DNA of 64,000 nucleotides from a virus. Positions within the stretch are counted from its first letter, which is position 1, and every line of letters starts with the position of its first letter. Location of the stretch: the IMG/VR virus record IMGVR_UViG_3300019755_000002, positions 1 through 64,000 of that record; one strand, given 5' to 3'. The notes under the pieces are model-generated. The model worked only from the letters and a program-made list of their open reading frames with translations, had not been told where the DNA came from and did not search any database. A program made the position numbers and the translations under genes. Below, one piece after another: positions 13,925-46,010 of the stretch.

Positions 13925-13935
13925 TTTCACTAAGT

Positions 13936-13983
13936 ATGGTGGGTAAACTTCCCCACCATTAAACTAAAATTAGGATTGACGAT
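13936..13983 (+). promoter_or_regulatory. Hairpin + TTAAACTAAAATTA + box
   Basis: Stem ATGGTGGG / CCCACCAT (13936-13943 and 13952-13959) followed at once by the AT stretch and a perfect box before ATG 13984. Confidence 0.75.
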
Positions 13984-30795: not shown

Positions 30796-30813
30796 GAAAC
30801 TAACTCAAAAATT

Positions 30814-30827
30814 TGGATGGATTGACG
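30814..30827 (+). promoter_or_regulatory. Box with GTG start
   Basis: TTTGGATGGATTGACG followed by GTG at 30828, aligned exactly with copies in which ATG follows ATTGACG. Confidence 0.6.
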
Positions 30828-33800
30828 GTGGCCGACATGATCCCACAAGTATCATTAAGTATAATTACTAAACCAAGCGGAATACTAACTAAAAAACTAA
30901 GTGTTCAACAAGGTCGAGTAATAAGTGACTCTAGTGAATGTAGAATTAGTTCCGCTGTAGCGAATAGAATAACGCTACCGTTTGACCAAGTTCCACAATT
31001 ACTTAAAGAGTTGGGCAACAATCAATGTTGTGCGACGGGATGGGCGAACACCGACCACACCCAAGTTGAGTTAATGTCGCGAGACAAATTTGAGTCTAAG
31101 CATTACCAATTCCCCGTGCAAGAGTTACCGCACGGGGTTTATGCTACCAGAACACTAGACTCGTTTACTCAAAAAGGGCAAAGTCTAATCATGTTTGATT
31201 ACGACGACGATGAGGCTTGTCCGTATAAAATTAACTGCCCCGAGCAATTTATAGAATTACTATCACAAGTAATCCCAGACTTTAACAAAACCACCTATAT
31301 CCGAACATTTTCAACCTCGTCGGGTGTTTATGACCGCACAACAGGGGTTTGCCTAAAAGAAGCCGCAGGTTTTCATCTATGGATGGTTGTACCCGATGGT
31401 AGTGATATTCAACGATTTGGTGAAGTGTTAGAAAAAAGACTCTGGTTAGCTGGTCTAGGCTATATCAAAGTTTCGACTAAGAATGCCAACCTAAATATCC
31501 GTACTGTAATTGATACGGCGGTATTTAGTCCTGAAAGGCTGGTATTTGAAGCGGGGGCGGTTATTAGTGATGAAAGTATCGAACAACGGCTACCATCCCC
31601 TGAGTATAATGCCAAGCAATATAATTTACTTGATACCAAGAGACTACCTAACTTAAGTGATTTAGAGGAAAAGTCTTATCAAACGGCTATTTTAAATGCG
31701 AAACTAGCCGATCACGTTGTCAAAACAAAAAACGAAATTAAACAACGCATAGCCGACGATTTTGTTGTTAAAGCACAAATGGCGGGTAGAATAATTCCGC
31801 GTTCACAAGCAATGAGAATGGTAGAAAATTTAGAAAGGCATATTCTCCCACCATTTCATATTATTTATTTCGCCGACGGTTCACAAGCGACGGTAATGGA
31901 TATTGTTGCTAACCCCATGGCTTTCGATGGTCGTGAATGTTTAGACCCCATTCGAGAAGATAAGGGTCATGGACGCTCAAAAATCTTCGCTAATTTAGAC
32001 CAAGCCGTACCTAAACCACAAATACACTCTTTTGTTGAAGGTGGGCGTAACTTTGATTTAATGGCTTCTATGAAGTTATTACACGTAAAAACGGTTGACG
32101 AAGAATTTACCGCCTTGCGTGATTTAGTCACTACATACCAAAGTCAGGATAGTGAATACTTCAAAGCAATTGAACTTAAACCAGGTATTAATCTGATTAA
32201 AGGTGAAAAAGGCACGGGTAAAACCTTCACTATTGCAGAAACAATAAGAGCAACAGAATTAAGTGTTCTGGGGATTACCCCTCGAATCGGTTTAACTGAA
32301 ACGGTTTCAGACGACTTTGGCTTATCTTGTTATAACGACGAAAAATTTAAAGAAAGCCACGTTCTAAGGTCACAAAAACGATTAGCTATATGTTATGACT
32401 CTATACATAAGATTGCAGGACAGTATTTTGATATCGTTGTCATAGATGAAATTATTCAAGTTATGCGACACGTTAAATCCAGTTCGGTTAAATTTAAATT
32501 TGTTTGTTTAAATGTTCTCAGGTCTTTAATCTTAAACGCTAGATACGTTGTTATGATGGATGCCGATATCAGCGCGGATTATCTTGGTTTACTTAGAGAC
32601 CCAGATTTGGGCTGCTGTAAACAAAACGTAGACATAAATCTAATCCTTAATCATTACAAACCCGCTCAACGTCAGGGTAGAAAAATTTACAATTACATTG
32701 ACCTTGAAGATAAAGCCGATGAAGAAGCTTGGGGAATAAATTTACTTGAGTACGTGAAAGATAAGGGTACCTTTATTGCCACAAATGCTAGAACACAGGC
32801 ATACAATGTTGCCAATGAAGTTCTCGAATCTTGGGGTTTAAATGTTACCCTAGAACAAGGACATTTTATTACTGAAGTTAATGGTCGTCGTGTTATAACC
32901 ATAACCTCAGACAACTCGGGTTTGTCGGAAGTAGCGCAATTTGTAAGTAATATTAATAAAAATCTCAGGCCGACGGACGTTTTTATTTCTTCACCAAGCT
33001 TAGGTACAGGTGTCTCAGTTAATAAACGTGAAGGTAAGCCTGTATTTGAACGTGTTTATTGTCGCTTCACTAAACGAGCGGGTAACACCTCAGCCGATTG
33101 CTCTCAACATATTGCACGAATCCGTGGTTGTACCGAGTTTCACAACATCATTATTGATACGTTGGAGTGGCAAGAAACTGACCCAGAATTAATCGTAGCG
33201 CAAGAAATTTATGGTCGAGTTAAAGCTGTGGATGGCTATGTTCGTAGTAATGATTTGAACTTTGACCCCTACATGAATAAATACGTTTTTGCGGATAATA
33301 ATTGGGGACAGTGGTTTGGTTTAATGGTTAGTTTTGAAAACCTTGATCGTAATGAATTTGGCTTAAACTTCTTAACGCGATTAGAGCAAGAGGGGTATAC
33401 CATTGAGACAGTTAAATCGGAAATAGCCCCTGAAGCAAGGACTAAAAAGCATGAACAAACTAAGCGTGTAAAAACGAAACAGAAGGAGTTAGAAACACAA
33501 CTAACAGTTGATTCCCCATTATTAACAGATGAAGAAAAAGCGGAGTTAGATGCAAAGTCTCAGTTAACAGTAGATGAAAAACGTCAAATGCTAAAACGTA
33601 GCACTGCCGATGCCTTTGGTGAATACAACCAAGACGGATTGGAAGGTTTACTACGCCTGAGTAAAGCAGCATTAAAGTATCGTCGTTCAGGTTTATATTT
33701 TGGTATGAATAGCGAAACGTTGTTGTTAACCGATTTAAGTAATCGACTTGATCACGAAAAAATGCATATTGAAAAAACAGTACATTACCCCCGTTGGTCG

Positions 33801-34310
33801 CTAATGATATCCTTAGCAAGCATTTTAGGTATAACGTTAGATAATGATAAACTTCCCCATTCAAACGGTGCGGTTATCAATGATGGTGTAAAAGTGGCTT
33901 TTTACAATCGCCTTCGAGAAGAAAAAGAGGACGTAAAAACACTTTTAGGTATTAATGTTGGTTACCATAAAGAAATGCACGGCATTAGTACCGTGGTTGG
34001 TAACGCGGCTAAAGCCATGGGACTAAAACTTATTCGTAAATCGCATAAAGGCCCAAATGGTGAAATAAAAGTCCGTGTAGTCTGTCAAGAATCCTTAGCT
34101 ACTCTTCGCAGCGATATACTACGAGCTAGAGCATACAGCCCATCACCATTACACACAACACTAGCAGAGCCACCACATTCGCTAGTTAACTATGTTGCTC
34201 AGTATAATGCTGGAATGCCTGAAAGAGCACCTAGAGAACATCGATACTTATCTCAGCTTAATGACTATGAATTTGACTTACTTCACAAATTTATTAAACG
34301 AGTGGTATGA
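30828..34310 (+). CDS. Primase-helicase with origin-binding-protein-like helicase domain
   Basis: 1160 residues starting at the box-aligned GTG (alternative ATG at 30837). The N-terminal part carries MFDYDDDEACP at about 120-130, an acidic cluster like the active site of archaeo-eukaryotic primases, followed by YIRTFSTSSGVYD. The second half is a superfamily 2-like helicase: Walker A GEKGTGKT at about 458, motif II VVIDEI at about 537, and motif VI QHIARIRGC at about 762, resembling the herpes origin-binding-protein group. It likely primes and opens the phage origin; the best replication-initiator candidate in the window. Confidence 0.75.
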   Translation: MADMIPQVSLSIITKPSGILTKKLSVQQGRVISDSSECRISSAVANRITLPFDQVPQLLKELGNNQCCATGWANTDHTQVELMSRDKFESKHYQFPVQELPHGVYATRTLDSFTQKGQSLIMFDYDDDEACPYKINCPEQFIELLSQVIPDFNKTTYIRTFSTSSGVYDRTTGVCLKEAAGFHLWMVVPDGSDIQRFGEVLEKRLWLAGLGYIKVSTKNANLNIRTVIDTAVFSPERLVFEAGAVISDESIEQRLPSPEYNAKQYNLLDTKRLPNLSDLEEKSYQTAILNAKLADHVVKTKNEIKQRIADDFVVKAQMAGRIIPRSQAMRMVENLERHILPPFHIIYFADGSQATVMDIVANPMAFDGRECLDPIREDKGHGRSKIFANLDQAVPKPQIHSFVEGGRNFDLMASMKLLHVKTVDEEFTALRDLVTTYQSQDSEYFKAIELKPGINLIKGEKGTGKTFTIAETIRATELSVLGITPRIGLTETVSDDFGLSCYNDEKFKESHVLRSQKRLAICYDSIHKIAGQYFDIVVIDEIIQVMRHVKSSSVKFKFVCLNVLRSLILNARYVVMMDADISADYLGLLRDPDLGCCKQNVDINLILNHYKPAQRQGRKIYNYIDLEDKADEEAWGINLLEYVKDKGTFIATNARTQAYNVANEVLESWGLNVTLEQGHFITEVNGRRVITITSDNSGLSEVAQFVSNINKNLRPTDVFISSPSLGTGVSVNKREGKPVFERVYCRFTKRAGNTSADCSQHIARIRGCTEFHNIIIDTLEWQETDPELIVAQEIYGRVKAVDGYVRSNDLNFDPYMNKYVFADNNWGQWFGLMVSFENLDRNEFGLNFLTRLEQEGYTIETVKSEIAPEARTKKHEQTKRVKTKQKELETQLTVDSPLLTDEEKAELDAKSQLTVDEKRQMLKRSTADAFGEYNQDGLEGLLRLSKAALKYRRSGLYFGMNSETLLLTDLSNRLDHEKMHIEKTVHYPRWSLMISLASILGITLDNDKLPHSNGAVINDGVKVAFYNRLREEKEDVKTLLGINVGYHKEMHGISTVVGNAAKAMGLKLIRKSHKGPNGEIKVRVVCQESLATLRSDILRARAYSPSPLHTTLAEPPHSLVNYVAQYNAGMPERAPREHRYLSQLNDYEFDLLHKFIKRVV

Positions 34311-35340: not shown

Positions 35341-36420
35341 ATGAAAACATTCATAATGCCCGAGGGCAGCCGAGTTATAAACTTCCCTTTATCTTCTTTA
35401 GGGCCAAACTCCACCTTAGATAAATACCTTCAACATTGCTATATTCTTGGAGACCCACATTTAGGTCGTAAATTCAAAACGGGGGTTCCTATTCATCGTC
35501 TTGGTGATCGTGAACAAGCCGTCAAAGTTGATTTTCAAGAAAGTCTTATTGGCCTTAAACCAGGTAGAAAATTCCACGTTTGTATGGGGGACTTGTTTGA
35601 TAAGTTTACCGTACCAAATGAATGGGTAGAATTCGCTTATCAAACATACCGTGAAGCAGCGTTAAAGTTCCCTGCAGTGACGTTCATTGTTATTCAAGGA
35701 AACCATGACGCATCAAAAGATAAATCTAAAGTAAGTTCTTTTGAAATATTCGCTGAGCTTTGTAAGCCAATAAGCAACATTAAAGTGCTAACGGAACACC
35801 CAATATTTATCCCACACGATCAATTAAACTTTCTATTCGTTCCGTGGACTCCTTTTAAAACAACGTCTGAACTCTTAGCTTTAGAATTTCCACTATTAAA
35901 CAAAGTTAAAAATTCACCCTTTGTAGCTTTCGGCCATTGGGACACAAAAAGCCACGGTGAAGATATTTGTGAGAACATCATCCCTCACGACCATTTTACT
36001 CGTGATTGCTGTGACGGGGTGGTTACTGGTCATTATCATAAACCCGAAAGAACTATGTTAAAGAAAATTGAATTGTTTGTTACTGGGTCAATGCAGCCAT
36101 ACGCACATGGTGAAGAAGCCGACGACGTAGATAATCCTATGTACGTTACTGACACTAAAGCAAACGTCGAAGCAAAACTTATTGAAGACGAAACCTTTTA
36201 TAAAAACAAAGTGCTTAGGGTATTGGTTGAACAAGACGACACACCGTTAGCGGGTATTGATTGCTATGCACTCACCCACAAAAAGACCGCGCCGTTAGGA
36301 GAAGAAAACGACGTGGACGTGGAAATTGACGACTTTGATATTAAGGGGTTATTCAACAGCGTAATGACAGAAAAAGGCGTTTCCTCTGAACTAACGCAAG
36401 AACTATGGGCTAAATTATGA
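35341..36420 (+). CDS. sbcD: SbcD/Mre11-like nuclease subunit
   Basis: 359 residues. The calcineurin-like phosphoesterase motifs are complete: GDPHLGR at about 37, GDLFDK at about 83, GNHDAS at about 120, and GHYHKPE at about 230. It forms a complex with the Rad50-like product of the next gene (T5 D12/D13 are phage equivalents) that cuts hairpins and processes ends in recombination-dependent replication. The stop overlaps the SbcC start (ATGA). Confidence 0.9.
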   Translation: MKTFIMPEGSRVINFPLSSLGPNSTLDKYLQHCYILGDPHLGRKFKTGVPIHRLGDREQAVKVDFQESLIGLKPGRKFHVCMGDLFDKFTVPNEWVEFAYQTYREAALKFPAVTFIVIQGNHDASKDKSKVSSFEIFAELCKPISNIKVLTEHPIFIPHDQLNFLFVPWTPFKTTSELLALEFPLLNKVKNSPFVAFGHWDTKSHGEDICENIIPHDHFTRDCCDGVVTGHYHKPERTMLKKIELFVTGSMQPYAHGEEADDVDNPMYVTDTKANVEAKLIEDETFYKNKVLRVLVEQDDTPLAGIDCYALTHKKTAPLGEENDVDVEIDDFDIKGLFNSVMTEKGVSSELTQELWAKL

Positions 36421-38465
36421 TTTCAAAAATTAAATATAAAATTGACTTTAGTAATGGGAAATCTCGAAGTAACGATGCGGAGTTATTAAACGGCAGCACC
36501 ATGATCACGGGTAAAAATGGTCGCGGTAAAAGCCTAAATCTTGAAATGATTGCCTTCACATTATTTGGCACCGTAGCGCTACGTGGAAAAACGGGGGATT
36601 ACTCAAGAATAAAATCGCAAATAGATGTTACCATTAAAAATACGCCCTATGTTATTAAGCGTACTAAGAGTGGTGCCGACGTGTTAAATGTCGATGGAGA
36701 GCCACTAGCAACGGGTCATAAAGCCGTTAACGAATGGATAATATCTACATTAGGTTATGGTTATGATGTCTTCCGTATCGCGCATTGGTGCGCTCAAGGA
36801 GACATTCAAGCGTTAGCTAATATGTTACCAACACAGCGTAAGCAAATGATTGATGATGTTGCGGGCTTAACGCAAATGGACGGCCTGATTAAGCTTGTAG
36901 GTGAAGAGGCTAAAATTTATCGTGCGGGGATTACCGCTGCTGAAAGTGTCTTAATAAAACCCACCAAACCCACCAAACCCGAAGGTCAGAGCGAAGGGGA
37001 TTTAAACATAGGCCTAGAACAACTTGAAGTTGAACGTTTAGACTATTTAAAGCTGGAGGCGGAAGTTAATAGCTTACCCCCTTTAGTCGAACCTGTTAGA
37101 CCAACCGAACCTCAACCGTTAACATTACCAGCGCAACCAGAGGAATTAACGGTCGAATTGTTAGAAATTGTACCCGTGACTATTCCAGAAAATTTAGCGG
37201 GGCAAGATATTTTTCAAGTGATTAGGGACTTAAATGAACGACGTCAACAGCTAGAATCCAACCAACGGGATTTATCCGCTATTAAGCAGCAGTTATTGAC
37301 CGCACCACAGTATATTGTAGACATGATCCCAGACGTTGCCTTATTAACGCGAGAAGAACTGGAACGTCAGCATGAAGTTTATAAACAAGCGACGTTAAAG
37401 AAACAGCTTCTAGACCAAGGTGACGTTACGTGTCCCAACTGTAATGTCGCACACCCTTTAGCAAGTGACGCACTAAAGGAATACGAGAATGTTGACTTAA
37501 ACATACTAAACTCAGCACCTTTAAGTTTCCAAGACTTTGAACGTTGTCTTAAGTGGAAAGACTTGAATAGTCGCGTAGCAGAATTAGAAGCAACACTACA
37601 ACCGTTACCAACAATCTTAATGTTATTAGAGCAATTTGAGCCTATTGCGGCACAATTAAACGCTAACGAAAATGCTGAGAAAACTAATGCGGAAAAAATT
37701 GCACAGCAAGCTAAAAGTAACGAACATAACTATCGCCAATGGCAGAACACTTGCCAAAGCCTTAAGCAAAGCCACGACAATAGTGTGGCGCAGTTTAACG
37801 CTAATTTAGAAAACTTTGCCAAAGCCTGTGAAGCGCATAAAGCCGAGGTAATTAGACAAGAGCAAATAGTTAGCACTTGGCACCAATGGGGAACGGATTT
37901 CAAACTAGAGAACCAAGCGTTAATCTCGGAGGTAAATAAAGCACTTCAAACTTGGGCGACGTATCACACCCTTGTTGATGTTTATAATAAACAGCTAACA
38001 TCATACGAATTAGCTAAGAAAAGCATAGATAACGACAAAGCCCTACTTGAAGACCGAAACAAGGCTAAAGCGGCCTTGACGGAAATAAAAGCACGAGTAA
38101 AAACGTACATCGTGCCAAGCCTTAATAAAGTCGCTAGTTATCTACTTAGTGAAATGACAGGCGGTGAGCATAGCAACGTTGTTATTGATGAAAACTTTGA
38201 AGTGGACGTGGACGGCCAACCGCTTAGAACGCTGTCCGGATCGGGAAAAGACATCACAAATTTAGCCATTCGTATTGGTCTTGGAAGAATTCTCACGCAT
38301 AAAGTTTTACCCGTAATGATGTTGGATGAAATTGACGCCGCTATGGACGAAGAACGTGCTCAATATACTTGGGATTGCATACAAAAAATAACGCCCCGAA
38401 TTGGTCAAGTCCTACAAGTTAGCCATAAAGATTTACCTGCTCAACATAGAATGGAGGTGGTTTAG
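36417..38465 (+). CDS. sbcC: SbcC/Rad50-like ATPase
   Basis: 682 residues. Walker A GKNGRGKS at about 31-38; zinc hook CPNC at about 339 between two coiled-coil stretches; signature LSGSGKD at about 607; Walker B MMLDEIDAA at about 635. At 682 residues it is shorter than cellular SbcC (~1050) because the coiled coil is short, as usual for phages. It works with SbcD in double-strand end processing. Confidence 0.9.
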   Translation: MISKIKYKIDFSNGKSRSNDAELLNGSTMITGKNGRGKSLNLEMIAFTLFGTVALRGKTGDYSRIKSQIDVTIKNTPYVIKRTKSGADVLNVDGEPLATGHKAVNEWIISTLGYGYDVFRIAHWCAQGDIQALANMLPTQRKQMIDDVAGLTQMDGLIKLVGEEAKIYRAGITAAESVLIKPTKPTKPEGQSEGDLNIGLEQLEVERLDYLKLEAEVNSLPPLVEPVRPTEPQPLTLPAQPEELTVELLEIVPVTIPENLAGQDIFQVIRDLNERRQQLESNQRDLSAIKQQLLTAPQYIVDMIPDVALLTREELERQHEVYKQATLKKQLLDQGDVTCPNCNVAHPLASDALKEYENVDLNILNSAPLSFQDFERCLKWKDLNSRVAELEATLQPLPTILMLLEQFEPIAAQLNANENAEKTNAEKIAQQAKSNEHNYRQWQNTCQSLKQSHDNSVAQFNANLENFAKACEAHKAEVIRQEQIVSTWHQWGTDFKLENQALISEVNKALQTWATYHTLVDVYNKQLTSYELAKKSIDNDKALLEDRNKAKAALTEIKARVKTYIVPSLNKVASYLLSEMTGGEHSNVVIDENFEVDVDGQPLRTLSGSGKDITNLAIRIGLGRILTHKVLPVMMLDEIDAAMDEERAQYTWDCIQKITPRIGQVLQVSHKDLPAQHRMEVV

Positions 38466-38466
38466 T

Positions 38467-38709
38467 ATGTTTATTAGTGAAGAATGGTTGACGTTGTTTC
38501 TCTTAATGTCAATTTTGGGGATGCTTTATTTCTTTATCTTAGCCTTTAAGCTCGGCAAGCGGTTAGTTTATTGGGTTTGCTATTGGTATACACATTTTAC
38601 GTGCAACCATATTTATGTACCAGGTAAACACAGTCATAAAGGTTCGGTTTTATTTTGCATAAACTGCTATCGAACTAAAGAAAACAGGAAAGAGGTAAAT
38701 GGGAGGTAG
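38467..38709 (+). CDS. Small membrane protein with Cys-containing tail
   Basis: 80 residues from ATG 38467, just after the sbcC stop. A long hydrophobic segment ([20 protein letters not shown], about 8-27) is followed by an aromatic stretch and CNH...CINC, a possible metal site. Probably an inner-membrane protein. Overlaps the SEC-C gene when the latter starts at 38699. Confidence 0.6.
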
Positions 38710-38716
38710 ACAACAA

Positions 38717-38959
38717 ATGAAAACAGGTCTTGCAGCCATTCTTGCCATAGCCGCTAGCGGCGTCTCTGTTCAGCAAGAGATAGAAAACGCCACTCGAAAG
38801 TCGAGTAATCGTGTGTGGAAACCTATAGCCTCAAAAGCCAAGGGGTATTCGTTCAACGACGCTGGGGTGGCTAATAAGCTATCAAGGGTTGGACGTAACG
38901 AACCCTGTCCTTGTGGCTGCGGTAAGAAATTCAAATATTGTACTTTAATTAAGGAATAA
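38717..38959 (+). CDS. SEC-C motif protein
   Basis: 80 residues from ATG 38717 (GGGAGG upstream; an ATG at 38699 is an alternative). The C-terminus [16 protein letters not shown] is the SEC-C zinc-binding motif found at the end of SecA and in many small proteins and fusions. The N-terminal part is Ala-rich and could be a weak membrane anchor. The motif is diagnostic, the function not. Confidence 0.7.
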
Positions 38960-38961
38960 AA

Positions 38962-39120
38962 ATGTTAGAACTTTTGGAATACGTCACTAGCGGTTTTTGG
39001 GTTTTCATAGGCTCAATAATTATTATACCGTTATTCTTACTTTGTACTGGCTGGGCTATCAATGCCTTACTGCTAGGTTTGTGGGGAAAGAAATGCTCAG
39101 ACATAGATATTTCACTTTAA
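38962..39120 (+). CDS. Small membrane protein
   Basis: 52 residues, AAGGAATAAAA before the ATG. Long hydrophobic centre (VFIGSIIIIPLFLLCTGWAI) flanked by charged ends. The last gene before the attC-like array; the array begins 7 bp after the stop (GTTAGTG at 39127). Confidence 0.55.
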   Translation: MLELLEYVTSGFWVFIGSIIIIPLFLLCTGWAINALLLGLWGKKCSDIDISL

Positions 39121-39154
39121 GGGGTTGTTAGTGTTTAAATTTAGGAGAACAATT

Positions 39155-39456
39155 ATGGATATGTATGGATTTATTGAAAAAATCAATCGTGAAGTTTTGC
39201 ACCCTTTGGGTTTGGCCATGACTAGAAACCCAGAAACGGCAGCAGCGATGGTCTTCTTATTTCGGATGATGGTGAATGGGAGAACGCGCCTGAAATGAAG
39301 ATAAAAACAGAAGATGCAATGGAATTAGGCTTTGCAAGAGACAACCGAAAAAGGCGCAGGCAAATGCGTAGGAATGCCCAGGCATTATTTGCGGCTGGTG
39401 GTTCTATAATGACTGTAGCTGCAAAGTGGAATTTAGAGCAAGCAAGAGCCGTATAA
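39155..39456 (+). pseudogene. Frameshifted small conserved gene in cassette 1
   Basis: The frame from ATG 39155 reads IEKINREVLHPLGLAMTRNP and then ends early at 39298. A +1 frame from about 39238 continues SDDGEWENAPEMKIKTEDAM and onwards to a stop at 39456. Restoring one G in the GG run at 39238-39239 gives a continuous PETGSSDGLLISDDGEW, the usual form of this small phage/accessory family as I remember it. It is either a real frameshift, a programmed site or a sequencing error. AGGAGAACAATT before the ATG is a good SD. Confidence 0.7.
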
Positions 39457-39552
39457 CCTTTGCGTTAAGCGGTGAGTGAAAGTTAGTGTGTTTTTGGCTA
39501 ACTGTAAGGAATCCGATGAGCGCAGCGAATGAATTTGAACGCGTTGTTAGAA
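39451..39552 (+). other. attC-like site 1
   Basis: R'' GTATAAC (39451-39457), L'' GCGTTAAG (39462-39469), L' TTGAACGC (39535-39542), R' GTTAGAA (39546-39552), 102 bp. The centre contains AAGTTAG / CTAAC-type pairing. L'' and L' pair over GCGTT. Confidence 0.7.
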
Positions 39553-39580
39553 TTGGCGTTAACTAAAAGGTATAATTAAA

Positions 39581-39898
39581 ATGGAACAAGCTTTAGCGGC
39601 AGTTTACGCAGAGGGTGAAAAGGCTTTTCATACTGGTAGTGTGAACCCCTACCCAAACACAGATCAGTACTGGGGTGAATGGACGGCAGGATGGACGGCT
39701 GAAAAATTAAAAGCAGAAAATAAAAACAAGGTAGAAACTATTGAAAATATAGGTCTATCAAAAAACAAACAAAAAGCAATTAAGCAATTTTCGGAAATGA
39801 TAGCCAAAGATTGTGCTGAATTGATTGAAACGGTAATAGAAAAACGAGTGAGAATGTACGCTACTCATTTAGCTGAAATAATGCAAAAAGATGATTAG
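39581..39898 (+). CDS. Cassette 2 gene: RMF/CrpP-like N-terminal motif
   Basis: 105 residues. Residues about 10-38 (YAEGEKAFHTGSVNPYPNT then YWGEWTAGW) fit the pattern of ribosome modulation factor and CrpP-like small proteins (A..G..A...G...NPY......W..GW). The C-terminal part is a helical Lys/Glu-rich extension. Such proteins act on ribosomes or modify small molecules; the function of this one is unknown. The gene is the whole cassette content, typical for integron arrays. Confidence 0.65.
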   Translation: MEQALAAVYAEGEKAFHTGSVNPYPNTDQYWGEWTAGWTAEKLKAENKNKVETIENIGLSKNKQKAIKQFSEMIAKDCAELIETVIEKRVRMYATHLAEIMQKDD

Positions 39899-39901
39899 TC
39901 A

Positions 39902-39995
39902 TTCTAACCTTTGCGTTAAGCGGTGAGTGAAAGTTGGGAACCAACTGTAACGAGTCCGACGAATGAAATGAGTGAATTTAAACGCGTTGTTAGTG
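39902..39995 (+). other. attC-like site 2
   Basis: R'' TTCTAAC (39902-39908), L'' GCGTTAAG (39913-39920), L' TTAAACGC (39978-39985), R' GTTAGTG (39989-39995), 94 bp. R'' with its preceding A (ATTCTAAC) is the exact complement of GTTAGAAT at the left end of the same unit (39546-39553). Confidence 0.75.
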
Positions 39996-40022
39996 ACGCA
40001 TTACGGGAATACTGGAGATAAT

Positions 40023-40277
40023 ATGCCAATTACAAAAGAGCAGCTAAAGGAAACTAAAGTTCCTTACTTAATAGTAGCTGACTGTAGAGCAGGAAAGAGA
40101 AAAGGACTACCTAAAAAAGAACAACCTAGCACCGTTGTTGGTTATTCAGTGAATGACCCCCTAGGTGTTGGTGGTGGTATTTTTGACACAAACCCATGTG
40201 TTTATTTTAAAAGTGGTGGATGGGTATTACTAAGCGACTTTGTGAAGAACCACTCTATTGTGAGTAATGCGCACTAA
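40023..40277 (+). CDS. Cassette 3 gene: hypothetical protein
   Basis: 84 residues from ATG 40023 (GGAGATAAT before it). Compact alpha/beta-type sequence with Gly-rich turns (DPLGVGGGIFDTNPCVYF) and a Lys-rich segment. The stop codon lies within the R'' box of attC 3. No family recognised. Confidence 0.65.
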   Translation: MPITKEQLKETKVPYLIVADCRAGKRKGLPKKEQPSTVVGYSVNDPLGVGGGIFDTNPCVYFKSGGWVLLSDFVKNHSIVSNAH

Positions 40278-40329
40278 CCTTTAACTTAAGCGGCAAGCTG
40301 TTTTTGTCACGTTGAATTATTTGTTATGT
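40272..40329 (+). other. attC-like site 3 (short)
   Basis: R'' CACTAAC (40272-40278), L'' around TTAACTTAAG, L' around GTTGAATTA, R' GTTATGT (40323-40329), 58 bp. TAATGCGCACTAAC at its left is the complement of GTTAGTGACGCATTA at the left end of its own unit, apart from one extra base. Confidence 0.65.
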
Positions 40330-40356
40330 TACCACGAAATAACGGAGATAAATATA

Positions 40357-41043
40357 ATGAAAACGACATACTGTAGTGATCGCGTTGAGCCTGTTGTTAG
40401 CTTTGCTGCTACACCATTAAATACTGAATCAATGAGGCAGCACAGAGAAAGATGGTTAAACAGGATTCAAGAAGCGGAGAGTAAATTTAACATAATAGAG
40501 AATTGCGTTCATGAAATACTAAACGACATAGAAGAGGATAAAATAACAACCTTAAAATCTGTTTATGATCGATTACTAATAGCGGTAAAGAAATCAAACT
40601 TAACCCCGACACCAGAAGCTAGAGTCGCAATGATTATTTATAGCGATGAATATGAAAAACAGTGCGGGGGATCAATGGATTTTTTTGATTCGCTAGATGA
40701 AGATAGAAAGCACCGATGTAAATTGGTGGTGGCAACATTAAATAACCTATCAGCAACGGATAAGAAGGTGTTACTAACCGCTTTAAGAAGCAAGGGTTTT
40801 ACGAAGAATAAAGTATACGCCGATAGCTTAGAAAAAAAACGTGAGTTTAATTCAGCAATAAAGTTAACGAGTCTAGGTCTTATTAATGGTGAGGTTACTT
40901 ATGAACATACTAATGGCTATGCTGTAACTGGGTTTGGTAGAACTTGGGTTGACGGTAAGTCATGGAATAGTTTTAAAGGTGAGTTAACGAAAAAGGGGAT
41001 CGAGGTGGCAAAAGTCCTTCTCCCCCACATTAGACCCGTTTAA
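40357..41043 (+). CDS. Hypothetical protein after attC 3
   Basis: 228 residues from ATG 40357 (CGGAGATAAAT before it). Mostly helical with a charged N-terminal half (RERWLNRIQEAESKF; HEILNDIEEDKITTL) and a C-terminal half that ends GIEVAKVLLPHIRP, resembling winged-helix-like small proteins. It starts directly after the R' half of attC 3 but no further attC follows, so it may be a last cassette that lost its site or a resident phage gene. Confidence 0.6.
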   Translation: MKTTYCSDRVEPVVSFAATPLNTESMRQHRERWLNRIQEAESKFNIIENCVHEILNDIEEDKITTLKSVYDRLLIAVKKSNLTPTPEARVAMIIYSDEYEKQCGGSMDFFDSLDEDRKHRCKLVVATLNNLSATDKKVLLTALRSKGFTKNKVYADSLEKKREFNSAIKLTSLGLINGEVTYEHTNGYAVTGFGRTWVDGKSWNSFKGELTKKGIEVAKVLLPHIRPV

Positions 41044-41077
41044 TTTATATCGTGAAAAGACAGAAACAAAATAACAA

Positions 41078-41097
41078 AATAACAAAATGATATTATT
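41078..41097. promoter_or_regulatory. Operator-like site matching the repressor region
   Basis: AATAACAAAATGATATTATT, one mismatch over 17 bases to AATAACAAAAAGATATT at 6658. It overlaps tandem ATAACAAAAT repeats and lies just upstream of a TTGACC hexamer at 41100-41105, a possible -35 element. Confidence 0.55.
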
Positions 41098-41173
41098 TCT
41101 TGACCTCAAGACGTCTTAAAGGTACTTTATGCAGACAAGGAACGACAACAACGTCCTTGTCCTACAAATTAAC

Positions 41174-41184
41174 TGATTGACGAT
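41174..41184 (+). promoter_or_regulatory. Detached box variant TGATTGACGAT
   Basis: First base differs (T for G). ATTGAGGTAACG lies between box and ATG 41197, giving a separate ribosome-binding site. Confidence 0.55.
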
Positions 41185-41196
41185 ATTGAGGTAACG

Positions 41197-41535
41197 ATGT
41201 CCGCGAATAACCACCAGCGTAGTCCTATACGCTTAGATTTAGTCCCTAATGACTTACTCACACCCGAAGACCTTTTTACCCTAACGGGTTACGAAGACCC
41301 AAAGTTTCAAGCCAAAGTCCTAAAAGAAAACAATATCTTTTACTTAAAAGTTAGACGAAACGAAATCCGTACTACCTGGTATCACATCAACAACCCCATA
41401 CATTTACGCGTCCCCCATTTGGCTCAGGCAGATGGTGGTGTCGGTTGGAATAAGAGTTTCCAACCTCGTGTGGATTCGGTTCCCAAACCAGATGCCACGG
41501 ATATAGCAAGCACGTTAGAAGCGTATAATAATTAA
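41197..41535 (+). CDS. Hypothetical protein (regulatory module)
   Basis: 112 residues. An N-terminal PNDLLTPEDLFTLTGYEDPKFQAKVLKENN region looks like a domain with HTH-type helices, as in small phage DNA-binding proteins that act with AlpA-like regulators; the C-terminal part is Pro-rich and disordered. Followed by a box and the AlpA-like gene, so control or excision is plausible. Confidence 0.55.
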   Translation: MSANNHQRSPIRLDLVPNDLLTPEDLFTLTGYEDPKFQAKVLKENNIFYLKVRRNEIRTTWYHINNPIHLRVPHLAQADGGVGWNKSFQPRVDSVPKPDATDIASTLEAYNN

Positions 41536-41538
41536 CTT

Positions 41539-41549
41539 TGGATTGACGA
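41539..41549 (+). promoter_or_regulatory. Box
   Basis: TGGATTGACGAT joined to ATG 41551, four bases after the previous stop. Confidence 0.65.
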
Positions 41550-41550
41550 T

Positions 41551-41802
41551 ATGAACAACCAGAACACTCTTGGGGTAAACACCAACATGTCCCCACTTCA
41601 ACAAAGCAAACATCAAAAATATTGGAGTACAAAACAAGTATGTGAACGATTTGGATATATATCGTCACGCACACTCTCTAGATGGGTCGAGTCCAGAGGA
41701 TTCCCGCCGTCGGTTACACCTGAAGGAGAGGCGAATTTATACTCCATTGAAGCCATCCTCTTGTGGGAAGAAAACTATTTCACCCAACCAGATATAGCCT
41801 AA
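41551..41802 (+). CDS. AlpA/MerR-type HTH regulator (excisionase candidate)
   Basis: 83 residues. WSTKQVCERFGYISSRTLSRWVESRGFPPSV is the winged-helix pattern of AlpA-like and Xis-like proteins (strand, helix, turn, recognition helix with SRTLSRWV, then RGFPP). These proteins activate or direct excision of P4-type integrases. The integrase gene lies 1.9 kb downstream on the opposite strand. Confidence 0.75.
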   Translation: MNNQNTLGVNTNMSPLQQSKHQKYWSTKQVCERFGYISSRTLSRWVESRGFPPSVTPEGEANLYSIEAILLWEENYFTQPDIA

Positions 41803-41811
41803 GGAATAAGC

Positions 41812-42021
41812 ATGTTTCTATATCTTCTACAATTTGTGGGTCTATTCCTGTTTCTAGGGCTATCGGGGTCAATGATTATCCTCGGAATTTTAGCCCTAAC
41901 AAATGCGGGATTTTCAGAGCCTAATCCGGTACAGAAAGTTTTTGGTTTACTAAGTGTCTGTACAGGTATCTTAGGTTTATACCTTATCTTTAGTTCCATA
42001 ACATTAACCATTAACCATTAA
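41812..42021 (+). CDS. Small membrane protein
   Basis: 69 residues with two hydrophobic segments (about 3-29 and 43-66). AAGGAATAAGC precedes the ATG. No known motif; a possible accessory membrane protein of the lysogeny module. Confidence 0.6.
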   Translation: MFLYLLQFVGLFLFLGLSGSMIILGILALTNAGFSEPNPVQKVFGLLSVCTGILGLYLIFSSITLTINH

Positions 42022-42035
42022 CTAACGAGAAAATT

Positions 42036-42137
42036 ATGTTAAAAACTCCGTTCAAAGAAACAAGAATAACATATGCCGTAAGACATGCCTTAGCACAACC
42101 TGAGTACTACCGACCAAAATCGGAGGATAAAGACTAA
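42036..42137 (+). CDS. Very small basic protein
   Basis: 33 residues, ACGAGAAAATT before the ATG, ending in TAATG that overlaps the next gene's start. Basic with an aromatic centre (TYAVRHALAQPEYYRP). The coupling to the DUF6378-like gene supports it being real. Confidence 0.5.
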   Translation: MLKTPFKETRITYAVRHALAQPEYYRPKSEDKD

Positions 42138-42409
42138 TGGCTGACACCGAATCGACACTCATTGAGAGAGGAAAAAATTACGGTCGCTTTCAAAGTGGTG
42201 CTACTACCATGCAAAACTTAAAAAACGTGATACGTGATAACAAAGGCTATGAACACTTAACCGCACCTCAGCGTGAAGCTCTTGACATGATCTTACACAA
42301 AGTAGGTCGTATTGTTAACGGTAATGCGGAACACGTTGATAGTTGGCACGACATTAGTGGCTATGCTCAATTAATTGAAAATCAAATTAAGGGTATTGGT
42401 GAACAATAA
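42137..42409 (+). CDS. DUF6378-like phage protein
   Basis: 90 residues. The C-terminal block ILHKVGRIVNGNAEHVDSWH then DISGYAQLIENQI matches the conserved core of a small phage family (DUF6378) often found with replication or thymidylate genes. All-helical; function of the family is unknown. Confidence 0.7.
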   Translation: MADTESTLIERGKNYGRFQSGATTMQNLKNVIRDNKGYEHLTAPQREALDMILHKVGRIVNGNAEHVDSWHDISGYAQLIENQIKGIGEQ

Positions 42410-42433
42410 TCCGTGAAATAAAGGTGGTGATAT

Positions 42434-42676
42434 ATGTTAAAAGAAGTAAAACCCGTACCAACCGTTGGTGTAGATACCAAAACGGTACAAGCTTTAGAGT
42501 CATTATTAGCCTCGGCTAAAAAAGGTGACTTAAAGAGCGTTATTTATATCGATCAATACAAAGATGGTAAGTGTGGCCACGGCTGGGCTGGTAAACCTGA
42601 CAACAACATGCTGGGACAAATTGAGGACTGTAAATTCAACATTATATCCCAACGATATTTTACGGTTCAAGAATAA
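42434..42676 (+). CDS. Small hypothetical protein
   Basis: 80 residues, AGGTGGTGATAT before the ATG. Alpha/beta sequence with a Gly/His patch (DGKCGHGWAGKPDNN). It is followed by a terminator. Function unknown. Confidence 0.6.
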   Translation: MLKEVKPVPTVGVDTKTVQALESLLASAKKGDLKSVIYIDQYKDGKCGHGWAGKPDNNMLGQIEDCKFNIISQRYFTVQE

Positions 42677-42683
42677 CCTAACC

Positions 42684-42709
42684 AAGACCTACGTATGTAG
42701 GTCTTTTAA
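42684..42709 (+). terminator. Rho-independent terminator
   Basis: AAGACCTAC / GTAGGTCTT with a 4-nt loop (42684-42705), followed by TTAAC. Ends the unit that begins at 41197. Confidence 0.75.
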
Positions 42710-42729
42710 CTTTAGATAGGAATAAAAAT

Positions 42730-43056
42730 ATGTCAAACAGAAAAAGTACGATGGTCGAATTGGTTGATGAACTCAAGAAGTTACCTAAATCCCCCGACAT
42801 TAACTTCATGATCCAAGAAGCTTTAGCAGGAGAATACCACGATTATAAGAATGAGAAGTATGTCTGTGGGAAGATGGAAAGCTCTCAACGATTAAGGACA
42901 TTGGGTTATCCTGACTTAGCTCAGCGTATTGAGAATGGTGAGTTTGACGAAACGTGCGACGATGATGATAAAGAACGTCTTGCTAAGGAATTAACGGAAA
43001 ACATGCCGCCAGAACAAGCACAATCATTAATTAACGCCTTAGGCCTTAACGAATAA
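42730..43056 (+). CDS. Hypothetical acidic protein
   Basis: 108 residues, ATAGGAATAAAAAT before the ATG. Acidic and helical, with a Asp-rich patch (DETCDDDDKERLAKEL) that could bind metal or act as a DNA mimic; this is speculation. Ends 13 bp before the Dam gene. Confidence 0.6.
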   Translation: MSNRKSTMVELVDELKKLPKSPDINFMIQEALAGEYHDYKNEKYVCGKMESSQRLRTLGYPDLAQRIENGEFDETCDDDDKERLAKELTENMPPEQAQSLINALGLNE

Positions 43057-43057
43057 T

Positions 43058-43069
43058 AGGATTGACGAT
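43058..43069 (+). promoter_or_regulatory. Box
   Basis: AGGATTGACGAT directly before ATG 43070, beginning two bases after the previous stop; no hairpin. Confidence 0.65.
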
Positions 43070-43666
43070 ATGAGCCATCAACAGATAAATCAAAGCTCAG
43101 GTAATGTTGAATACTACACCTCTGAAGAACTACTTGTCTTAGTACGAGAAGTGTTGGGAACAATAGACCTCGACCCAGCAAGCTGCTCGTTAGCGAATGA
43201 AGTGGTAAAGGCAAAAAATATTTTTACCAAAGAGAACGACGGCCTAAGTCACTCTTGGTTTGGTAAAGTGTTTATGAACCACCCCTTCCATAAGGGAGAA
43301 AAACCGTGTAAGAAAAACTGCAAAAAGAAAATTTGCCAACCGAGCAACGACCCTAAAAAACCTACGCGTGGTCATTGTATCGATTATGAAATCCCTGGCA
43401 ATGCCATCTGGACGAATAAACTTGCCGATGAATACTATAAGGGCAATATTGAAGAGGCTATTTGTATAACGTTCTCATCAATGTCTGAAGATTGGATGTG
43501 GCCGCTACTTCAAGAAGTGCAATGCTTCCCGCGCGGTAGAGTACATTATCGAAAGCCTGACGGTACAGTTGACCGACAAGCAACGAAAGGTAGTGTGTTA
43601 ACTTACTTCGGTAAGAATCCTGAGAAGTTCGAGGCCGTTTTCAGTGCTATAGGCAAAGTAAAATAA
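43070..43666 (+). CDS. Phage Dam-type N6-adenine methyltransferase
   Basis: 198 residues. N-terminal YYTSEELLVLVREVLGTIDLDPAS is the family start (target site E..LL..V...IDLDPAS) and FMNHPF at about 73-78 takes the place of the NPPY/DPPY catalytic motif. Ends with GRVHYRKPDGTVDRQATKGS. This is the family of small phage DNA N6-adenine methyltransferases, with a replaced catalytic second residue (NHPF). Its activity should be checked. It ends 2 bp from the integrase stop, facing it. Confidence 0.75.
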   Translation: MSHQQINQSSGNVEYYTSEELLVLVREVLGTIDLDPASCSLANEVVKAKNIFTKENDGLSHSWFGKVFMNHPFHKGEKPCKKNCKKKICQPSNDPKKPTRGHCIDYEIPGNAIWTNKLADEYYKGNIEEAICITFSSMSEDWMWPLLQEVQCFPRGRVHYRKPDGTVDRQATKGSVLTYFGKNPEKFEAVFSAIGKVK

Positions 43667-43667
43667 G

Positions 43668-44975
43668 CTACCAAACTACACCACCATCCTTATCCACTGT
43701 TCTAGTGTCAGTAGAAGAATTGTCTAATTTACGCTCAGGCAGTGGTGAATTTAACAGTTCTTCTATACGTTCACCCCACTTATTATACGCTCGTGCTTGA
43801 TCTGGAAGATAGGAGTTTAAATCATAAACATCTTCAACACCTGGGGTAGAGTGCCCCAACATTATCTCGGCAACGTGTGGTAACGTTATCTTTTCGCCCT
43901 TAATCTCTTTAGTCCAGTTGGTTCTAGCGGTTCTACGCAAGTCATGTATCGTCCAGTGAACCATCTTAACATTGAAGTTTTTAAGAATGTACGCATTGAT
44001 GTTCTTGGGTATGTTTAAGTGTGACTGACCTTTAGCTTTATCACTAAACTTATCTGGCTTAGTAATGTTCGTAAAAACAAATTCCTTAGACCCACTTAGG
44101 GACAGGGCTTGCACGATCAAAGGTTTAGAAAACTTAGTAATAGGACGGACAATGGGTAAATCCATAAATTCCCCTGTCTTATGTTCTTCAGGTAATAACG
44201 TCCACAGACCAGTATTAAAATCAAATTGCTTTGGATGTGAATTCGTCAACTCCCCTATTCGACAACCATAGTATAAACATAACAATACCTGTATCTTTGT
44301 CTTTGCTGCAGAACGTCCCAACGTAAGCGCCTTGAGAATATAAATTAACTCATCATCGGACAAAACTCTTTTTCTTTTCTTACGAACAATTTTCAAATCA
44401 CGTCTAGCACTAAGATGTGCTAACGGGTTTTCGTTAACGACACGTTTACTTATACCTCGAAAGTACACTTGTTTTAAAAAGGACAACATCACCCCCGTCA
44501 TGTACGGTCTAAGCGGCATGTGTTTTTCAAAAAAATCCATCCAACGAGCGGTGCTTATTTGTGAAGCTGGATAGCCCCCCATTTCAGAAAGTACGTGCTG
44601 TTTCGTGGCCTTAACATTTCGTGAAGCTTTTTTCTTAACGCCTTCCTGTTCGTACCAATCGAGAAATAAATCACTAAAGGTTGAATATCTACCCTCCCCA
44701 AATAAATTTTTTTCTTGGGTTATTTTTGGATGAACACCCTCAGCGATACCCTCTTTAATTTTGGCGTTTAACTTTCGGGCTTTACTAAGAGAAAGGTCGG
44801 GGTAAGTCCCTAAGTCTAGTCTAGAAGGTTTGCCCCCTTTTGGGTATCTATACCTTAGTTGAAAAACTATTTTCCCTTTTGCCGAGACTCGAACACTTAA
44901 GCCATTGCCGTCGCTCTTTTCATATGTGCGTCCTTTTTTATCAGGTGATTTTAACCAAGTGTCAGTTAAGGCCAC
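43668..44975 (-). CDS. int: Tyrosine recombinase (P4-type integrase)
   Basis: 435 residues from a GTG (GGAG before it). N-terminal DUF4102-like arm domain: LSVRVSAKGKIVFQLRYRYP and LGTYPDLSLSKAR. Catalytic domain: Arg in CRIGEL at about 238, HDLRRT at about 343-348, HSTP at about 373 and Tyr in DVYDL at about 383. The family integrates into tRNA or tmRNA genes. It proves a temperate or integrative lifestyle. An AlpA-like candidate directionality factor lies at 41551. Confidence 0.95.
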   Translation of the reverse strand: MALTDTWLKSPDKKGRTYEKSDGNGLSVRVSAKGKIVFQLRYRYPKGGKPSRLDLGTYPDLSLSKARKLNAKIKEGIAEGVHPKITQEKNLFGEGRYSTFSDLFLDWYEQEGVKKKASRNVKATKQHVLSEMGGYPASQISTARWMDFFEKHMPLRPYMTGVMLSFLKQVYFRGISKRVVNENPLAHLSARRDLKIVRKKRKRVLSDDELIYILKALTLGRSAAKTKIQVLLCLYYGCRIGELTNSHPKQFDFNTGLWTLLPEEHKTGEFMDLPIVRPITKFSKPLIVQALSLSGSKEFVFTNITKPDKFSDKAKGQSHLNIPKNINAYILKNFNVKMVHWTIHDLRRTARTNWTKEIKGEKITLPHVAEIMLGHSTPGVEDVYDLNSYLPDQARAYNKWGERIEELLNSPLPERKLDNSSTDTRTVDKDGGVVW

Positions 44976-45385
44976 GTATAGCTCCTAGAGAGAAATTGTG
45001 TACATATTTTCTCAATATTTCAGTTTAATAGTACCAAGATAAAAATATGTACATGGATATGTACACATATTTGTTGGCTGCAAGTGACCTAGTATGTCTT
45101 AATTTGACAGCCTTGAAAAGCACCTTTAGCCTAAGCCGCATAGATACTAGATTAAAGTTTTGTCCTGATGTGTCTTGATGTGTCGAAACAATACCATAGT
45201 CTCCACATGCTTTGTTTGAGAAAACATATTGCGAACACTTAAGGTATTGAATTAAAAACAAATAATAAAAAGCAATATTTGGAACTTTAAAAATATGTAC
45301 CTGATTCTGTACACTTTTCTAAAAGTGTCCCCTGAATCTTGCGTTTAGGTTTAAAACACTTTTCTAATATTACGCTATTTTAAAT
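44976..45385. promoter_or_regulatory. Candidate attP region
   Basis: About 410 bp gene-free between the integrase and lysis genes. Repeated inverted and direct copies of TGTACATATTT-type sequence: 44998-45010, 45042-45072 (AAAATATGTACAT and ATATGTACACATATTT), and AAATATGTAC near 45291-45300. These are candidate integrase arm sites or operators. No tRNA end or core duplication can be identified from the window alone, so the core is not placed. Confidence 0.55.
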
Positions 45386-45413
45386 AGAGAAAAAAGAAAG
45401 CTCTTTTTTCTCT
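45386..45413 (-). terminator. Late-operon terminator
   Basis: AGAGAAAAAAGA / TCTTTTTTCTCT, perfect 12-bp stem with a 4-nt loop, six bases after the Rz1-like stop (minus strand). Ends the lysis and tail transcript; the long A and T arms can terminate in both directions. Confidence 0.85.
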
Positions 45414-45418
45414 ACATG

Positions 45419-45706
45419 TTATTTTGCTTGATTTCGGATATAAGCTGCCGCAGACGACATTTTAGAGGCGCAAAGGTGATAGCGATTATTGTTCCTAATT
45501 GTGACACCCAGCATATCCCTAAAATCGTTACTGTTATAAGTTAATAATGGTAAACACTCCGTAGTTATACTACTCGGTGGCTGCACTTGTAACTTTGGAA
45601 GACTCAGTTCGGTTGGGGCTACGGTTATTGATGGAGTCGTTGAGCAACCTAATAGCGTCGTCACTAACAATAGCACACTCAGGTTCAACTTTAATTTTAT
45701 CAACAT
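45419..45706 (-). CDS. Outer-membrane spanin (Rz1-like lipoprotein)
   Basis: 95 residues. N-terminal signal with lipobox LLLVTTLLGC (cysteine at about 21) followed by a Pro-containing segment (TTPSITVAPTELSLPKLQVQPP), typical of Rz1 o-spanins. It is encoded in another frame and overlaps the end of the Rz-like gene by about 137 bases, as in lambda. It would fuse the inner and outer membranes at lysis with its partner. Confidence 0.8.
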   Translation of the reverse strand: MLIKLKLNLSVLLLVTTLLGCSTTPSITVAPTELSLPKLQVQPPSSITTECLPLLTYNSNDFRDMLGVTIRNNNRYHLCASKMSSAAAYIRNQAK

Positions 45707-46010
45707 ACTTAATTATCTCCTTAGTTATAATTTTAGTTTGAACATCTTGGTTACGCCGAGCTAATTCGTCGGCGTGTATCTGAGCTTGTTTATTTAACGC
45801 GTCTTGCATTTCTTTGTGAGCTATTTTAATTTGCTTAGCTGTGGCCTCCTCAACAGCCTTAGCGCTAGCACTACTCATTTCAGCAATGGCCCTGTTGTAG
45901 CCATTACTATCCAAATAAGTACCAATGGCAACTAAAGCGGATAAAGCACTAAGAATCGTAAACACCCATTTATAGCCATCAACAAAATCAACTATTTTTG
46001 TTACCCACAT
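45570..46010 (-). CDS. Inner-membrane spanin (Rz-like)
   Basis: 146 residues. One N-terminal transmembrane segment (WVFTILSALSALVAIGTYL, about 15-33) and a long periplasmic coiled coil (EMSSASAKAVEEATAKQIK to about residue 105). Size and architecture match Rz. Works with the Rz1-like lipoprotein. GGAG precedes ATG. Confidence 0.8.
   Translation of the reverse strand: MWVTKIVDFVDGYKWVFTILSALSALVAIGTYLDSNGYNRAIAEMSSASAKAVEEATAKQIKIAHKEMQDALNKQAQIHADELARRNQDVQTKIITKEIIKYVDKIKVEPECAIVSDDAIRLLNDSINNRSPNRTESSKVTSAATE

Follow-up and report, generated by a model that had tools for sequence, protein, structure and literature searches.

A probable small integrase-less attC array in a phage related to KB12-38, with attC sites turned against the genes and placed upstream of them

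Phages are already known to carry clusters of attC sites lacking integron integrases (CALINs): the available text of PMC9892861 counts 17 CALINs in 10,705 genomes and reports that IntI1 recombines phage attC, namely five of six tested sites, two of them from phage PH101. The integron integrase IntI recombines the bottom strand of attC, which fixes gene direction at attI, and exposure of that strand sets excision rates (PMC11023631, available text). Here we characterize an array of attC-like sites and small genes in the IMG/VR virus record IMGVR_UViG_3300019755_000002, of which positions 1–64,000 out of 78,716 bases (the window) were analyzed. We consider it likely that the array is a small integrase-less CALIN in a relative of Pseudoalteromonas phage KB12-38, with genuine attC sites lying against the genes, a movable unit composed of attC and then gene, and recombination probably carried out by a host IntI.

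Sites were scored with two covariance models. R1 comprises 37 attC sites from arrays beside intI genes in the order containing a Paraglaciecola metagenome-assembled genome (MAG), hereafter the host order, in which IntI exceeded the cut-off in 33 of 59 genomes. Because R1 alone was insufficient for the window sites, R2 was built from 35 phage sites aligned to R1, none of them from the window. A first MAFFT alignment of the phage sites (A2) was discarded for its misaligned arms in favor of A3, an alignment fitted to the model, whose structure it leans to. Covariation across the arms, with unpaired extra bases, is seen in host sites and in phage sites, the latter scoring 0.408 vs 0.108 shuffled in an alignment fitted to the model. 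Over 175,749 bases, R2 placed the window sites S1, S3, and S2 at ranks one to three (E 0.0017, 0.0026, and 0.0062), all on the minus strand, followed by a fourth match of 18.1 bits (coordinates and scores in Table 1). These are exactly the three sets of boxes that a sequence-only reading of this DNA had placed at 39127–40329. With R2 the three sites score 23–25 bits, all significant, but with the host model they reach only 4.8–12.5 bits. R2 also matches in 56 of 99 host-order genomes, intI-linked arrays included, and phage-type and host-type sites therefore form one family.

Other ways of finding sites were less selective or narrower. A generic hairpin scanner was unspecific alone (up to 3 matches per 10 kb strand in shuffles) and served to point at sites. 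A loose two-armed consensus, written post hoc from the window sites themselves, occurs three times in the window vs 0.013 times per shuffled 64 kb. The exact 19-mer TAACCTTTGCGTTAAGCGG is found on 7 viral contigs and 5 genome contigs, and the pattern TAACCTTTGCNTTAA...GCGTTGTTA on one contig only. A 20-base core of another site type occurs on 16 viral contigs; seven of these loci are without an R2 match at E<=0.5 (one of the 16, L008, being searched with R1; loci and contigs are cited by L and G numbers). A polarity-neutral pattern yielded 32 further viral-contig loci, 20 of them without an R2 match at E<=0.02.

The three window sites lie within 0.9 kb, all on the minus strand, and the genes are all on the plus strand, contrary to the common though not absolute arrangement in which a cassette gene runs along its attC. 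No match to the integron integrase model TIGR02249 was found in the whole 78,716-base record, which extends the earlier statement that the window lacks IntI. The locus therefore corresponds to a CALIN and not to a complete integron of intI, attI, and Pc promoter, of which attI and Pc were not searched for. R''/R' boxes (RYYYAAC / GTTRRRY) surround L''/L' arms, with right boxes GTTAGAA, GTTAGTG, and GTTATGT in gene direction, and the arms of S1 and S2 pair as GCGTT.AAG with one extra base (C and T, respectively) in the 5' arm of the canonical strand and no clear second one. The right box of site 1, GTTAGAAT, is the exact complement of the left box of site 2, ATTCTAAC, and the right box of site 2, GTTAGTG, that of the left box of site 3, CACTAAC, extended to GTTAGTGaCGCATTAC / GTAATGCGCACTAAC with one bulge. 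Cassettes 2 and 3 consequently have own-end complementary runs of 8 and 7 bases, the latter continuing past the bulge, as the sequence-only reading had pointed out. Its judgment that this exceeds chance also holds: in 75 phage cassettes the mean run was 8.2 vs 4.9 permuted, close to the 8.4 vs 4.6 of 95 host cassettes, and the R2 E-values of the window sites are 0.002–0.006.

The polarity of the sites is read from their extra bases. Along the genes, those of phage sites sit on the 3' arm (TAACC...GCTT-AACGGG- / GCTTCAACGGGA), whereas in host intI-adjacent integrons they sit on the 5' arm (TAACAAG...TTACTCAAACGGACGC / TTACT-AAGCGG-CGC); the reverse complement (TAACAA...) is therefore the canonical attC, inverted relative to the phage genes. 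Applied to the window and phage contigs, R1 detected 30 sites at E<=1 on six contigs, and every one of these sites lies on the strand opposed to that of most array genes (30/30). When the longest open reading frame (ORF) between neighboring sites was taken as the cassette gene, 61 of 66 cassettes from 14 phage loci, among them the window and PH101, were inverted vs 18 of 89 host integron cassettes, the remaining 71 having the same direction as their attC (Fisher p 1.6e-20, relatedness not corrected for). With a ribosome site required, 57/61 phage and 14/79 host cassettes were inverted (65/79 same). Intervals without a qualifying ORF numbered 0/66 in phages and 1/90 in hosts, or 5/66 and 11/90 under the ribosome-site rule. 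This list combines R1 and R2 matches up to an E of about 0.6; sites recognized by eye alone are not in it. Excluded from the counts were L003, L107, and L111 (apparent near duplicates of L002 and L103), L104 (the contig of L045), the L098 match at 1–120 (cut by the locus end), the opposite-strand L109 match 10216–10276, L155 11802–11895, the single matches of L012 and L157, and the opposite-strand host matches L084 5780 and L085 11123.

The same picture emerges from material chosen in other ways. In the polarity-neutral set of seven contigs with at least two R2 matches, phage-type sites (L152, L159, and L167) are inverted in 8/8 cases, whereas host-type sites on viral contigs (L154, L155, L160, and L175) have the same direction as their genes in 11/12. 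On two MAG contigs (L009 and L010) 3/3 cassettes are inverted, and L010 carries a phage tail gene. The virulent phage PH101 has four R1 sites on the plus strand among annotated coding sequences (CDS) on the minus strand. Phage and host sites also differ in their letters: after TAAC, AAC follows in 60/96 phage sites and AAG or AAA in 103/109 host sites, spacers are mostly AAC and GGTT in phages vs AAG/AAA and GCGTT in hosts, and median attC length is 78 vs 101. From 14 inverted contigs, one or two large proteins apiece were scanned. Seven contigs (L046, L039, L041, L099, L103, L152, and L167) gave head, tail, or terminase families, L044 a DNA transfer protein, and L109, L105, and L159 replication or annealing families; the large proteins scanned from L048, L098, and L102 had no family match at 1e-8. 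A candidate phage-specific trait, stop codons placed in TAAC, was rejected, being found in 35/61 inverted phage vs 32/71 same-direction host cassettes.

Some loci combine the two site types or sit between them. Within the phage array of L043, a host-type attC at 13934–14031 reaches 79 bits under the host model, and the neighboring cassette has an ORF with a ribosome site at 14036–14368, on the minus strand, along the attC and against the phage genes; no match to this ORF was found in 247 genomes. It is possibly a recently captured host gene. Three 14 kb viral records, L155, L160, and L165, have similar sets of large ORFs beside host-type attC and are perhaps small prophages inserted in host integrons.

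If the attC is inverted, with crossover at G|TT in R' (TAA|C along the gene), the movable unit should consist of an attC followed by its gene, and this prediction fits a cassette common to G001, G003, G005, and L103 at 82–95% identity, as found by blast of the array regions. When three of these contigs in full and 12.6 kb of the fourth were compared, no other shared DNA of at least 150 bp appeared at E<=1e-5. The shared block starts at the TAACC before the upstream attC in 3/4 contigs and ends at the TAACC of the next site in 4/4, the rest of that next attC being different; L103 also departs from the others in the front half of its upstream attC. As the block spans the upstream attC through to the next site, the movable unit is attC then gene, and similar whole attC modules precede different genes across arrays. 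One or more cassettes have thus, on the evidence of these alignments, passed between unrelated phages. The sequence-only reading had ordered each unit as a gene followed by its attC, which reads the sites on the wrong strand. Read in reverse, S1 is the attC of gene 2, S2 that of gene 3, and S3 that of gene 4; crossover at S1 is expected in GTATAA|C at its left end, behind the TAA stop of gene 1, and unit 1 as drawn earlier begins inside the putative half site S0. Of the two origins proposed at that time, use for gene exchange was the better guess, being in line with phage–phage exchange in related arrays, and the host-capture half did not hold up (see below).

A location upstream of the gene makes it possible for translation to start inside the attC. 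Of 97 phage-type sites, 17 (one on MAG contig L009) contain, within the attC, an ATG that has a ribosome site and whose frame passes the R'' box and enters the cassette gene; 10 of these 17 frames end at the TAAC of the next listed site. Among 119 host-type sites there are three such attC-started frames, none ending at the next site. The attC-encoded leaders recur before different protein bodies. Eight, spread over six contigs, resemble KPTVSNPVEAVVS; another two, at L109:9125–9337 and L098:2041–2292, have MKNNKLLIVLLSVLLVSLSGC in common, an N-terminus with the look of a lipoprotein signal peptide (LSGC), in front of differing bodies. In the window, gene 4 reads through the weak site at 40337–40402 as MKTTYCSDRVEPVVS|FAAT and may, judging by this frame, be a further translated attC.

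The cassette found in several phages carries an Acb2/Tad1-like gene and a second small ORF (L002:9410–9697, L040:14226–14486, L103:11366–11638, and L045 about 13103–13680). Its first protein matches the Pfam family Acb2_Tad1_hairpin (E 2.5e-21) and, among solved structures, p26 chains 8h2j (E 2.8e-19) and 8ixz (1.4e-18) and Vs.4 7uq2 (E 0.0013). Acb2 and Tad1 are described in the respective abstracts as sponges of immune nucleotides, and by its protein matches the shared cassette looks like a carrier of a counter-defence gene. Cargo was surveyed in 72 of 76 cassette proteins, leaving out two further Acb2/Tad1-like copies and two doubtful ORFs. Pfam assigned seven families, each represented once, including DNA methylases, MT-A70, and Lar restriction alleviation; PHROGs assigned 36 families, and each of the 25 shown likewise had a single member, several being DNA methyltransferases.

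Site structure, polarity, the movable unit, sharing between phages, and frames starting inside attC can be read from the DNA itself; what we infer is IntI as the catalyst, an effect on expression, and a reason for the kept polarity. In the proposed mechanism the coding strand of the phage array would be the strand that integron integrases recombine, i.e., the canonical bottom strand, and each cassette would comprise an attC, a ribosome site, and a gene, with crossover at TAA|C in gene direction, often behind the stop of the preceding gene. A host integron integrase would recombine attC with attC on the coding strand folded into a hairpin, a reaction that would excise or insert single genes. 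A cassette inserted into a reversed array would point along the phage genes, whereas a phage cassette that entered a host integron would be antisense to the cassette promoter Pc, and the reverse would apply to host cassettes. With genes against attC, the phage and host pools would therefore be compatible for recombination yet functionally separate. Tentatively, and with some doubt on our part, phages may run a cassette economy of their own through host integrases, in which reversed polarity separates the pools by leaving phage cassettes expressed in phages but silent in host integrons (and vice versa), attC acts as a portable translation start that equips new genes with N-termini such as short leaders or a lipoprotein-like signal peptide, and the traded genes include counter-defence functions (Acb2/Tad1-like sponge, Lar, and DNA methyltransferases), mirroring the defence genes in bacterial integrons.

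Several observations weigh against the reading of the locus as an inverted, IntI-mobilized CALIN. With filters off, R1 places S3, S2, and S1 exactly within 38000–42000 on the minus strand, at E-values of 0.09 to 8.7; in the wider run on window and phage contigs it has no window match at E<=1, and it has none in TJE1, P12002L, and MW202573, three phages with published CALINs. Cassette 1 breaks the complement rule (left end GTTAGTG, right end GTATAAC), and gene 4 has no recognizable box at its 3' boundary on the right-hand side. The searches made found no window cassette gene in another phage, so mobility pertains to the cassette of other phages and not to these units. Regarding polarity, in 5/66 phage cassettes the longest ORF runs along the attC, cassettes within one array are not independent, and the host array L085 (G022) has its longest ORF against attC in 9/13 cassettes, i.e., 9 of the 18 inverted host cassettes.

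These points have to be weighed together with other explanations of the array. Quite improbable is an ordinary stretch of host chromosomal integron, genes then attC, that the phage picked up. Such captures do occur, and phage and host sites belong to the same attC family, each model detecting the other's sites: Va_90-11-286_p16, published as carrying a piece of a host integron, has 16 R1 sites, all on the plus strand like 15/18 annotated CDS from 28334 onward and thus of normal polarity, and L154, L155, L160, and L175 are host-type with normal polarity on viral contigs. This explanation is opposed by the reversed polarity in the window and other phage arrays, by spacer letters and lengths that differ from host sites, and by a search of 295 host-order genomes, run with no positive control, that gave no convincing relative of genes 3 and 4 (one weak match for gene 4, E 8.5e-4). 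The capture from a host integron put forward as one option by the sequence-only reading is therefore unsupported, also considering that Va_90-11-286_p16, the only named carrier of a host integron tested, has its sites on the strand of most genes. Together with TJE1, in which three sites look normal in polarity by arm alignment and motif only, this phage limits reversal to one class of phage arrays rather than all. That a phage can live with the other polarity, as TJE1 suggests, would suit a founder effect, in which attC is truly inverted, one ancestral phage array had this orientation by chance, later cassettes all arose within it, and the polarity brings no advantage; so would the similar attC modules before different genes if they stem from a common stock. 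We hold this to be rather unlikely, since reversed polarity is found in PH101 too and, by arm alignment and motif only, in Polaribacter phage P12002L (candidate sites on plus amid minus genes), and since starts inside attC require the upstream position.

The identity of the catalyst and the nature of the repeats leave room for two further readings. The 17 records bearing such arrays, several of which are fragments, had no integron integrase over the cut-off, so the catalyst is something we infer, and the window phage has a tyrosine integrase of its own. That this integrase or XerCD recombines the sites in place of IntI is nevertheless improbable, as the extra bases and box layout of IntI substrates are kept, two sites of PH101, which matches R1, are recombined by IntI1 according to the available text of PMC9892861, and IntI is common in the likely host order. 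As DNA, the window sites fold no better than shuffles: free energies on the canonical strand gave z-scores of -0.8, -0.4, and +1.6 for the three sites, none of which is unusually stable, and R and L stems appear in single-strand folding of S2 alone. Four host sites ranged from -1.7 to -5.7 and six other phage sites from -5.95 to +0.40, two of the six (-0.35 and +0.40) being no better than shuffles. Weak folding, intergenic placement, and frequent overlap with stop or start codons would fit regulatory RNA or terminator-like elements between small phage genes. We regard such elements as highly improbable here, because recombination at the boxes explains the extra bases, the complementary cassette ends, and the exact sharing of single cassettes between unlike contigs, and Rfam gave no match at E<=1 in 36000–46000. 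An inverted CALIN served by a host IntI therefore is, in our view, the best explanation of the locus.

The array lies between sbcD/sbcC-like genes to the left and small genes and the phage's own tyrosine integrase to the right (Table 1). The closest relative in the phage collection is KB12-38, with a DNA polymerase of 64.0% identity over 98% and an SbcC of 45.5% over 100%; blastn of the array region against 50,697 phage records gave nothing. KB12-38 has no array between the same flanks: there, the SbcC and right-flank-gene matches are separated by 466 bases, the window having 2.7 kb between them, and an R2 scan of positions 30000–78271 of that record yields no array, only two weak matches elsewhere (17.2 and 15.5 bits). 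The array therefore occupies a stretch that the relative is without. G001 (L047 9800–11467; L048), another relative with similar polymerase and sbcC, has a cassette array elsewhere and no R2 site after sbcC. A large helicase-like protein with a Herpes_ori_bp match is encoded at 30813–34310, and a KB12-38 gene at a like place bears the same note; one tail protein of the window phage resembles lambda J. Gene 1 is probably a single frameshifted gene related to phrog_3954. Gene 3 has a possible alternative GTG start at 39972, and its TAA stop falls in the TAAC box of S3. Searches by tblastn for genes 2, 3, and 4 in phages gave no relatives, nor were SbcC, gene 3, or gene 2 found in viral contigs when close relatives only were sought. 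AlphaFold predictions from single sequences, with a mean pLDDT (predicted local distance difference test) of 33.8 for gene 4 and 41.6 for gene 3, were not usable.

Table 1. Genes and attC-like sites in and around the array, in window coordinates
Feature	Coordinates	Strand	Remarks
SbcC-like gene	36417..38465	+	left flank of array; PHROG 77; tblastn 45.5% over whole protein in MF098558
S0	39115..39133	-	probable half site, R''-L'' arm only, canonical CACTAACAACCCCTTAAAG; seen by inspection, no model match
Cassette gene 1	39155..39456	+	two overlapping frames, 39155–39298 and 39295–39456; phrog_3954 E 1.5e-11, first part only
attC S1	39451..39552	- (canonical)	R2 25.2 bits, E 0.0017; R1 4.8 bits
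Cassette gene 2	39581..39898	+	105 aa; no relative found
attC S2	39902..39995	-	R2 23.1 bits, E 0.0062; R1 6.9 bits; left box complements left end of cassette 2
Cassette gene 3	40023..40277	+	84 aa from ATG 40023, GGAG just upstream; no relative found
attC S3	40272..40329	-	somewhat degenerate; R2 24.5 bits, E 0.0026; R1 12.5 bits
Possible remnant attC S4	40337..40402	-	over 5' end of gene 4; weak, R2 only 12.3 bits, E 0.12 in 4 kb
Cassette gene 4	40357..41043	+	228 aa; last gene of array in gene direction
Right flank gene	41197..41535	+	conserved in KB12-38, 49.6%
Phage's own tyrosine integrase	43668..44975	-	Arm-DNA-bind_3 + Phage_integrase (Pfam), PHROG 1; not an integron integrase

Gene exchange between phages is usually ascribed to homologous or illegitimate recombination. 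A cassette with exact borders in phages that otherwise have no shared DNA in the comparison looks like the integron reaction in a reverse layout; it would offer a concrete route for the spread of a counter-defence gene and a reason why phage and host cassettes may not mix, and the polarity of attC relative to genes is worth reporting in programs and surveys. Neither reversed polarity nor upstream attC nor attC-encoded N-termini turned up in the open-access literature searched, subscription papers not being covered. The phage CALINs of PMC9892861 resemble those described here in being integrase-less attC arrays of temperate and virulent phages with methyltransferase cassettes. They differ in that PH101 cassettes are described as same-direction and of typical structure, with divergent attC directions noted in P12002L, and the available text makes no mention of an attC-against-genes rule, an upstream-attC unit, translation of attC, or a cassette that recurs in several phages. 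The sedentary chromosomal integrons found in the host order share the attC fold, the extra bases, and the complementary cassette ends, but they have IntI, genes along attC in 71/89 cassettes, and other spacers. In the inverted chromosomal integron of Vibrio cholerae (PMC11023631, available text), orientation likewise decides which attC strand is exposed and hence the excision rate; there, the whole array was turned by the experimenters, whereas in phages the reversal lies inside the cassettes, between gene and attC. A recombination site likewise supplies translation signals in the case of ORF-11 of attI1 and of the short ORFs within attC (PMC8876359, in the text available), yet these encode a separate short peptide with its own stop, whereas the phage attC would encode the N-terminus of the cassette protein. 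The spirochaete integrons with a reverse-oriented IntI, as far as the available text of PMC9668308 describes them, are alike in their unusual orientation, with the difference that in those integrons IntI itself is reversed.

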